Positions 58,747-60,681 of a DNA stretch of 64,000 bases are shown here, piece after piece. Under the pieces are notes generated by a model, which saw only the letters and a list, made by a program, of their open reading frames with translations, did no database searches and was not told the DNA's origin. This stretch comes from Desulfurococcaceae archaeon MEX13E-LK6-19 (GTDB taxonomy: Archaea > Thermoproteota > Thermoprotei_A > Sulfolobales > Desulfurococcaceae), in the NCBI GenBank assembly GCA_029637525.1, contig CP072660.1, forward strand, positions 831,612 through 895,611, written 5' to 3'. Position 1 is the stretch's first letter. Every line of letters starts with the position of its first letter. Position numbers and translations under genes: made by a program.

Positions 58747-59055
58747 TTGTCGTTAACATGGGAACCAAGATGGGAGCCATATCTAGTTAATTATGCTGGC
58801 ATCAGATTTTGGACTTGTAGAGATAAAGTTACAAAAATAATAGCTTGCCCAATATGTTTGAATGCTATTAAGACATGCCTAGAGAAAGATCAAGAGAACA
58901 AAATAAATGCAAAAAAGAAAGAAGAAATAGAAGGAGCATTCTTCTTTAGTGAACGCGATTTAATTCTGCATATAAAATCTCATTACCAAAAACAATGGAT
59001 CAAGGAGAGGAAGGTTATTGTACCAGTTGTTGTTGAAGAAGAGGAAGAAGAGTAG
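58747..59055 (+). CDS. Small C2H2-like zinc-binding protein, unknown
   Basis: A 102-aa protein with ACPICLNAIKTC near residue 34 and LHIKSHYQK near 74, a Cys-x2-Cys ... His-x3-His layout that could bind zinc, and a Glu-only tail. It begins with TTG. It resembles conserved crenarchaeal hypotheticals. The end overlaps the PfkB-family gene by 38 bases, pointing to a shared mRNA. Confidence 0.7.
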   Translation: MSLTWEPRWEPYLVNYAGIRFWTCRDKVTKIIACPICLNAIKTCLEKDQENKINAKKKEEIEGAFFFSERDLILHIKSHYQKQWIKERKVIVPVVVEEEEEE

Positions 59056-59878
59056 CGTATTAGTTGTTGGTAATGTTACTATAGATGAGATTTATGTTGA
59101 TGGCAGCTTTGTTAAGACAAGCATAGGTGGTGGTGTATACTATAGTTCAAAAATACTAAAAATAATGGATATTACACCAGCTTTATTATGCAACTCAACT
59201 CATGTTCAAAGGAAAATTCTTGAGAGCGAAGGCTTTAACGAAATATATGGACTAGAAACAACAAAACCACCTTTATTTAGGCTCGACTACACGGAAAAAG
59301 AACGATTTTTACAACTATTATCTCCGGGAACAGTTATTCCTGATACCCTATTTCCAAGTTCCCGATATAATTTGGTGATTATAAATCCTGTTTATCATGA
59401 TGTTGATTTGAGCCTGATGAAAAAAGCTAGATGTTATGCCGACTACATAGCACTAGACATACAAGGTCTTGTAAGGACTGTTGATGATAACTCTAGAATC
59501 TCGCTAAAGTACAACGAAATTGCATGGGAGTATGTAGAACTCGCCGATATCATACATGCTGATTATAAAGAGGCCAGTACATTGGCGAATATAGATTCAA
59601 TATCCAAAACCATCGACTATCTTTGTGAAAAACATAGTAAAGACAAGATGTGGATTATAACGTATGGTGAAAACCCAATAGTAATCATAGTATCAAAGAA
59701 AATATACACAGTAGACCCACCCGCGATAAACAAAATAGTTGATGAAACAGGTGCAGGTGATACTTTCCTGGCAACAATGGCCATATACTACGTATTGACT
59801 CATGACCTAGAATTGGCCATTAGGAAATCTCTTGAAATAATAGCTTTAAAACTGAGAGGAGTTTTTAATAAAAAGTAA
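59018..59878 (+). CDS. PfkB-family sugar/nucleoside kinase
   Basis: A protein of 286 aa: VLVVGNVTIDEIYVDG at the N-terminus, the substrate-binding SIGGGVYYSSKIL near 39, and the catalytic DETGAGDTFLATMAIYY near 247 with anion-hole Gly and catalytic Asp. The sugar or nucleoside is unknown. I keep the TTG at 59018, because AAGGAGAGGAAGG lies just upstream; other TTG codons follow at 59030-59033. Confidence 0.88.
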   Translation: MYQLLLKKRKKSSVLVVGNVTIDEIYVDGSFVKTSIGGGVYYSSKILKIMDITPALLCNSTHVQRKILESEGFNEIYGLETTKPPLFRLDYTEKERFLQLLSPGTVIPDTLFPSSRYNLVIINPVYHDVDLSLMKKARCYADYIALDIQGLVRTVDDNSRISLKYNEIAWEYVELADIIHADYKEASTLANIDSISKTIDYLCEKHSKDKMWIITYGENPIVIIVSKKIYTVDPPAINKIVDETGAGDTFLATMAIYYVLTHDLELAIRKSLEIIALKLRGVFNKK

Positions 59879-60190
59879 ATGCCTCATCGCGGTCCACCAC
59901 CCTACCCCACCACCGCCCTTCATGTATACTTAATTACTACCTGCTACCGCCGGGCTGTACGCCCGGCGGAGTGCAGTTGTATTAGTTGAATTTAGCAGTT
60001 TAGCTACAAGTATTGTATAGTAAAATTGGCGTTCTTCCTGAATAAGCAGGAACCGCATCCTTTGCAAAAATACCTACATACTAGCCCTACTAACCAAGGG
60101 CATAGCCAGAGACCATGGAATTACAGGCGGTGGTGGGTGTTGTTGTATTACTGTTTTCCAGTTTCCTGTGGGTGGTGGACCGCTCGGCAT
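59879..60190 (-). ncRNA. Large structured RNA with terminal kink-turn, family unknown
   Basis: Transcribed right to left. Ends pair: ATGCC at the 5' end (60190-60186) with GGCAT at the 3' end (59883-59879). Next come GA opposite GATGA, an exact kink-turn (bulge GAU, tandem G-A pairs). Then a 14-bp helix P1 (60183-60170 with 59902-59889) and a 12-bp helix P2 (60137-60126 with 59917-59906). A 32-nt insert with a CAG-GAAA-CUG hairpin splits them on the 5' side. The core has a 9-bp GC hairpin (59947-59969), a 6-bp hairpin near 60036-60052 and GCCCU/AGGGC. I see no RNase P or SRP signature. GC is far above surroundings. Confidence 0.8.
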
Positions 60191-60211: not shown

Positions 60212-60226
60212 CTTATAAACTTTAGG
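60212..60226 (-). promoter_or_regulatory. Promoter of the large RNA
   Basis: On the minus strand, CTAAAG (BRE-like) precedes GTTTATAAG, a strong TATA box centred at 60216. Adding 25 bases gives a start at about 60191, one base before the predicted paired 5' end of the RNA. Confidence 0.7.
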
Positions 60227-60303: not shown

Positions 60304-60681
60304 TTATGTTTCAACCCATGCACCATTCTCAAAAACAGGATTATTTCTTTGTATTGATGCCAGAGCAAATAAGTCTGTTGACTGTTTTCCTTTCGCATAT
60401 ATTCTAGACAATATTACATCTTCTAGCTCCTCTTCTGATGGTGCTTTCCCTATACTCATAACCCTACCGTTAACCTCAATTATAGGTAAGTCAGGTACCT
60501 CGAGACCTAGAGGATCCTGGTACCAGACATGTATAGGGATTACTTCAACCCATACACCATATTCTTCGAGTATCTTCTGGGCAATTTTCCATGCAGTCCT
60601 TAGTGCTTTTTCGCTTTCTTCGTTAAACCCTAGCGTCAATTTTATCTCTACTTTGGGTACGTCGATAACGTTGGTGCTCAA
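60304..60681 (-). CDS. Thioredoxin-fold-like small protein, unknown
   Basis: A 125-aa protein. The stretch VEVIPIHVWYQDP, then VPDLPIIEVNGRVMSIGKAPSEEELEDVIL near 68-97, looks like the cis-Pro strand, hairpin and last helix of a thioredoxin fold, but the N-terminal half has no CxxC motif. Function is unknown. It starts with TTG after GTGAGGGATAG; TTTAAAAACAA upstream could be its TATA box. Confidence 0.7.
   Translation of the reverse strand: MSTNVIDVPKVEIKLTLGFNEESEKALRTAWKIAQKILEEYGVWVEVIPIHVWYQDPLGLEVPDLPIIEVNGRVMSIGKAPSEEELEDVILSRIYAKGKQSTDLFALASIQRNNPVFENGAWVET

Follow-up and report, generated by a model that had tools for sequence, protein, structure and literature searches.

A conserved structured noncoding RNA of Desulfurococcaceae with a terminal kink-turn, proposed as a ribonucleoprotein scaffold

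The minus strand of positions 59879-60190 of the window (the whole 64,000-nt stretch of DNA that was analysed) starts with AUGCC-GA-GCGGUCCACCACCC and finishes with GGGUGGUGGACCGC-GAU-GA-GGCAU. The question raised by this locus is whether the segment is the gene of a noncoding RNA and, if so, to which kind of RNA it belongs. A reading made from the sequence alone, without database searches, had described a GC-rich structured RNA closed by a kink-turn, with no family recognised.

Extent and conservation of the RNA

The features of the locus, in the numbering of the window, are the following:
59879..60190, minus strand: whole noncoding RNA, 312 nt, with the 5' end at 60190 and the 3' end at about 59879; ends conserved in 35 orthologues
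60213..60219, minus strand: TATA-like box TTTATAA, spanning -29 to -23 relative to the first paired base
60184..60190, minus strand: kink-turn, 5' strand without the bulge, with NC stem AUGCC and GA (box D-like CCGA); GA and the 4n-4b C-G pair in 35 of 35 orthologues
60170..60183, minus strand: 5' strand of helix P1, GCGGUCCACCACCC; exact inverted repeat, covariation
60126..60137, minus strand: 5' strand of helix P2, CCCACCACCGCC; exact inverted repeat, in long-form RNAs only
59947..59969, minus strand: P3 hairpin, CCGCCGGGC-loop-GCCCGGCGG; from the fold and per-group folds
59906..59917, minus strand: 3' strand of P2, GGCGGUGGUGGG; exact inverted repeat, in long-form RNAs only
59889..59902, minus strand: 3' strand of P1, GGGUGGUGGACCGC; exact inverted repeat, covariation
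59879..59888, minus strand: kink-turn, 3' strand with the bulge, consisting of L1-L3 GAU, GA and NC stem GGCAU; GA in 35 of 35 orthologues
59858..59878, minus strand: U-rich tract UUACUUUUUAUUAAAAACUCC, directly 3' of the RNA, overlapping the terminal part of the plus-strand PfkB gene
60304..60681, minus strand: thioredoxin-like gene, upstream neighbour; Pfam Thioredoxin_3 at 7e-5, below its cut-off, and synteny
59018..59878, plus strand: PfkB-family sugar kinase, convergent downstream neighbour; Pfam PfkB at 1.9e-11, and synteny

The RNA folds with -134.6 kcal/mol (z = -6.9; none of 100 shuffles was equally good), and its GC content in 150-nt windows is about 0.43 to 0.49, compared to about 0.3 to 0.4 in the flanks. 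The 14 bp of P1 and the 12 bp of P2 are perfect inverted repeats, as had been claimed from the sequence alone. It was found that the RNA is the top kink-turn-plus-long-helix of its kind in the 64-kb window (P1 of 14 bp, outer stem of 5 bp); shuffled windows contained weaker look-alikes, about one per strand, with a P1 of at most 13 bp. Because of these look-alikes, the evidence from the single sequence is only suggestive, and a comparison was needed. The conservation in 34 other genomes makes the evidence decisive, and we consider it nearly certain that the minus strand of 59879-60190 is a real, conserved, structured noncoding RNA, in agreement with the sequence-only reading.

In total, 35 orthologues were identified: 32 of the 40 Desulfurococcaceae genomes have one, as do three genomes of a second family (f4) of the same order. 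They are 168 to 341 nt long (284 nt in G022, 192 nt in G041 and 191 nt in G019, for example) and widely divergent in sequence. By blastn, both ends of the RNA were matched in eight genomes of the same family. A covariance model (R1) built from these relatives recovered more, including strongly diverged RNAs, and in genomes without a model match, the syntenic site held the same kink-turn and a long P1 of different sequence. A second model (R2), which the sequences within its own alignment match by construction, confirmed most of the syntenic orthologues with E-values down to 4e-27 and added one in genome G055, which was checked. The f4 orthologues were reached by way of the thioredoxin-like neighbour; their P1 has 15 to 17 bp of different sequence and was misaligned when a third covariance model was attempted. 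The covariance models therefore found only part of the orthologues, and synteny combined with a kink-turn-and-helix scan found the rest.

The eight Desulfurococcaceae genomes lacking the RNA comprise five without a match to seryl-tRNA synthetase (SerRS), mostly incomplete assemblies, one in which the contig stops before the RNA, and two of genus g13 (G012 and G021), in which the RNA was not found and the neighbourhood is different; the RNA may be dispensable in this genus. A search with R2 over 229 genomes of the class matched Desulfurococcaceae only, at a sensitivity limited by stricter filters and the variable interior, and the marginal matches outside the family (G116 and G027:C10) were false, having neither the kink-turn nor P1. 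A structural scan around the SerRS and thioredoxin-like genes of other families gave nothing beyond f4, with positive controls recovered, and no occurrence was found on viral contigs. Contig 1 of one f8 genome (G031) contained four weak GC-rich matches, none with an AUGA loop or a TATA box.

The sequence-only reading had noted a TATA box on the minus strand that predicts a start within about a base of the paired 5' end, and the relatives bear this out with constant spacing: among the 31 family members listed, 30 have the TATA-like box, without gaps, about 26 nt ahead of the first paired base, and the contig of the remaining one ends too early. Most orthologues also have an A/T-rich proximal element, often TTTAAACAAA, at about -20 to -8, between the TATA-like box and the start. 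At the genes for SRP RNA and RNase P RNA in the same genome, no such element could be made out. Downstream, the 15 nt past the last paired base are on average 75% pyrimidine (35 orthologues), and the U-rich tract UUACUUUUUAUUAAAAACUCC is a probable terminator, as judged from its sequence. The RNA is thus predicted to be a stand-alone gene with its own transcript, for which there are as yet no transcript data.

Terminal kink-turn and closing helix

The exact kink-turn of AUGCC-GA with GAU-GA-GGCAU, which had been noted to form only if the minus strand is transcribed, was confirmed, and a kink-turn is kept in all 35 orthologues. Because the kink-turn lies outside P1, P1 is the C-stem and the terminal AUGCC/GGCAU is the NC-stem, joined by the GAU loop and the tandem sheared GA/GA pairs, a polarity opposite to that of the box C/D terminal motif. 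The GA of the tandem G.A pairs is present on both strands, and the 4n-4b position is C-G, in 35 of 35 orthologues. The three-nucleotide loop is NAU (GAU in 30, AAU in four and UAU in one), and the 3n-3b position is C-G in 23, U-A in two, A.A in nine and A.G in one; the A.A of the nine sequences may change the folding properties of the kink-turn. All 35 sequences fulfil the criteria for an L7Ae-type kink-turn, namely a C-stem, a 3-nt loop, tandem G.A/A.G pairs and an NC-stem.

The long closing helix P1, mostly 13 to 20 bp, was likewise retained in every orthologue. In an alignment of 24 sequences, 14 of 15 P1 pairs showed two-sided change, and 97.9% of P1 cells were still paired. Over the whole structure of the same alignment, 17 pairs had two-sided change compared to a shuffled mean of 8.7, and the covariation score was 0.457 compared to 0.172 for shuffled alignments, with none of 500 shuffles reaching the observed value of any measure. 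When the P1 partner was shifted by one to three columns, the covariation signal was lost at every register.

The refuting conditions that the sequence-only reading had named, as far as comparison can address them, did not apply: P1 and the kink-turn recur in relatives with massive compensatory change. P2, which that reading had stressed, was found to be restricted to a long-form subset and is not a universal feature; alignment A1 contains nine long forms, among which the P2 sequence is nearly invariant, so that the pairing of P2 remains unproven by covariation. The 32-nt insert between P1 and P2, holding a GAAA-loop hairpin, had been called distinctive, which is not supported: this hairpin was found in this genome only and was absent from the relatives compared. 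A GC-rich hairpin is present at the position of P3 in most long forms, with a sequence that differs among genera. In genus g10 (L086/L087/L088), an extra internal K-loop, GC-A/C-GA ... GAUGA-A/G-GC, is located about 130 nt into the RNA. A clear second internal kink-turn element was seen in this genus only, and with it these RNAs have two sites of the L7Ae type, a number also seen in box C/D RNAs.

Proposed function and alternatives

The kink-turn as a protein-binding module is already well known, and in S. acidocaldarius, many noncoding RNAs, among them six unknown sRNAs, have kink-turns bound by L7Ae (PMC5539422). Although there are no binding data for the RNA described here, we infer from this known L7Ae biology that L7Ae probably binds it. 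Comparison of the orthologues places the predicted start where the outer stem of the kink-turn begins, give or take a base or two, and shows that the RNA closes on itself through the long P1, with a kink-turn resembling that of box C/D at its very ends. By inference, L7Ae would bind the terminal kink-turn, clamp and protect the ends, and bend the outer stem; P1 and the variable interior, with P2 and P3 as additions in the long form, would thereby be presented as a ribonucleoprotein scaffold. The least certain step, also inferred, is that the conserved function might reside in the L7Ae-P1 core and the proteins recruited to it, as opposed to a sequence acting as guide or ribozyme. It counts against this proposal that the interior varies too much for an active site to be recognised. 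Our favoured explanation, which we hold to be reasonably probable in the absence of transcript or binding data, is an independent, trans-acting structured RNA with its ends clamped by L7Ae, serving as the scaffold of an undescribed ribonucleoprotein. That it is the scaffold of a new ribonucleoprotein, as opposed to a regulator, a sponge or a cryptic form of a known machine, seems to us somewhat better supported than not.

The alternative that survives best, unlikely as it is, concerns the interior. The interior is A/U-rich, fast-evolving, largely unpaired and lineage-specific, whereas the ends are fixed, as might be expected of a trans-acting regulatory RNA that is stabilised by L7Ae and P1 and pairs through its single-stranded interior with mRNAs, the targets being specific to each lineage. 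The enrichment of AUACAG, UACGAG, UUACGA and GUAUAC over dinucleotide shuffles in short-form interiors (e.g., G050, G053 and G054) could be read in the same way. However, conservation as a single copy with strict constraint on the ends alone is atypical of antisense regulators.

It is improbable that the RNA is an L7Ae sponge, tuning the amount of free L7Ae and hence the autoregulated l7ae mRNA. The universally conserved parts are indeed only a consensus kink-turn and a supporting helix, and L7Ae is known to regulate its own synthesis by means of a kink-turn in the leader of its mRNA (PMC5539422), but a single kink-turn per RNA outside genus g10 would compete poorly with rRNA and many C/D sRNAs, and a size of 168 to 341 nt would be left unexplained.

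The usual gene order is SerRS, the thioredoxin-like gene and the RNA on the same strand, followed by the convergent PfkB gene. The RNA core ends right beside the PfkB stop codon, and in most genomes, the thioredoxin-like gene precedes the RNA on the same strand, an arrangement compatible with a cis element, either a 3' UTR of the thioredoxin-like gene or an antisense RNA or terminator for PfkB. However, the RNA has its own TATA-like box at fixed spacing, it is still beside PfkB in genome G009 although SerRS and the thioredoxin-like gene have been lost, and it is still beside the thioredoxin-like gene in G010, G011 and family f4 although PfkB has been lost. Because the RNA outlasts the loss of either neighbour, we give a cis element little credence. 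Of the genes next to the RNA, the one for the thioredoxin-like protein, which contains no cysteines, is conserved most deeply, in families f1 and f4. This protein might act as a partner of the RNA, yet in G009, the RNA survives without the gene alongside.

A divergent paralogue of the SRP, RNase P or RNase MRP-like RNA, or a box C/D or H/ACA guide, is slightly more doubtful still, even though the size, closing helix and kink-turn are alike and genus g10 has its second internal K-loop. In a search of the window and 20 homologous loci against Rfam 15 (4227 families), there were no matches at the gathering score, and at permissive thresholds, nothing credible was found within the RNA, the snoJ26 and SorX matches being at chance level; the absence of a recognised family from the sequence-only reading was thus upheld. 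The archaeal SRP RNA (RF01857) and RNase P RNA (RF00373), which had been set aside from the sequence alone, were rejected correctly: both remained below the gathering threshold at this locus, and the genome has its SRP RNA at G000:C1:356052-356345 (129 bits) and its RNase P RNA at G000:C1:424656-424983 (164 bits). A box C/D sRNA was rejected because all 35 orthologues have the D-like strand on the 5' side and the C-like strand on the 3' side, with the C-stem (P1) internal. An H/ACA sRNA was rejected because there was no Rfam H/ACA match and because a pyrimidine tract, in place of ACA, follows the NC stem at the 3' end. In the four species compared, complementarity to the mature 16S or 23S rRNA of the same species did not exceed 10 nt, and matches of 10 nt were at chance level.

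Two observations were made alongside these searches. Sub-threshold sR14-like box C/D matches at L123:370-402 and L132:287-346, more than 1 kb from the RNA, are possibly real C/D sRNA genes. The rRNA matches of the G016 16S (G016:C7:286-1256) and the G022 23S were broken into pieces, one match of the former stretching over 971 bases against 328 positions of the model, which points to introns or insertions in some relatives.

Finally, a small leaderless open reading frame (AUGCCGAGC...) in place of a noncoding RNA can be dismissed with hardly any reservation, because the AUG at the 5' end of the window RNA and of most long forms is present in only 15 of 35 orthologues (the rest having UUG, UGG, CCG, UCG or CGG), the frame is lost after P1, and the changes track base pairing and not codons.

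Significance and comparison with known systems

The RNA family is new, in that it is homologous to no Rfam 15 family and fits none of the known classes tested; no description of it was found in open-access papers, with most subscription papers lying outside that scope. To our knowledge, archaea have few described noncoding RNAs that are both large and widely conserved. In this case, the position, promoter and architecture are conserved across 32 genomes of one family and recur in another, without an Rfam family. As its ends are fixed and its interior is free to vary, such an RNA is easily missed by sequence search, and scanning by synteny and by kink-turn and helix could uncover more hidden RNAs. 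The favoured explanation, an L7Ae-capped ribonucleoprotein RNA, also suggests a direct approach: because the kink-turn locks the ends, L7Ae is the obvious first partner, making purification of the ribonucleoprotein possible. Whether Desulfurococcaceae and a second family of the order have, in this RNA, a third large housekeeping-type ribonucleoprotein RNA beside those of SRP and RNase P, with a terminal L7Ae kink-turn on a long covarying helix and a function outside known RNA classes, is in our estimation evenly balanced.

The hgc RNAs of Methanocaldococcus and Pyrococcus are GC-enriched structured RNAs found by GC screens in AT-rich hyperthermophile genomes. The RNA described here shares their GC enrichment against an AT-rich genome but has no Rfam match to any hgc family. 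It is in the size class of archaeal RNase P RNA, which also has a closing P1 helix and an L7Ae subunit, and differs in that RNase P RNA is a separate gene in this genome and gives no match. Archaeal SRP RNA is likewise similar in its size, its paired 5' and 3' ends and its kink-turn, which is bound by L7Ae in Sulfolobales (PMC5539422), but it too has a separate gene, and there is no covariance-model match. The kink-turn agrees with that of box C/D sRNAs at R-U-G-A and at 4b-G/4n-C, and genus g10 adds an internal K-loop; in contrast to these sRNAs, 3b-3n is not U.U, the D-like strand comes first with the long P1 as C-stem, the length is 168 to 341 nt, and no rRNA guide complementarity was found in the four species.

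The remaining comparison is with OLE RNA of Bacillota, a large stand-alone RNA with a kink-turn to which the L7Ae relative OapC (YbxF, L7Ae family) binds, as needed for the function of the ribonucleoprotein (PMC9723947). OLE RNA itself was rejected as a candidate: it is bacterial, about 600 nt long and strongly conserved at the sequence level, and Rfam gave no sign of homology in sequence or structure. The OLE kink-turn is required for both OapC binding and function (PMC9723947), and by analogy, the RNA of Desulfurococcaceae may be said to resemble OLE/OapC in its logic and not in membership.
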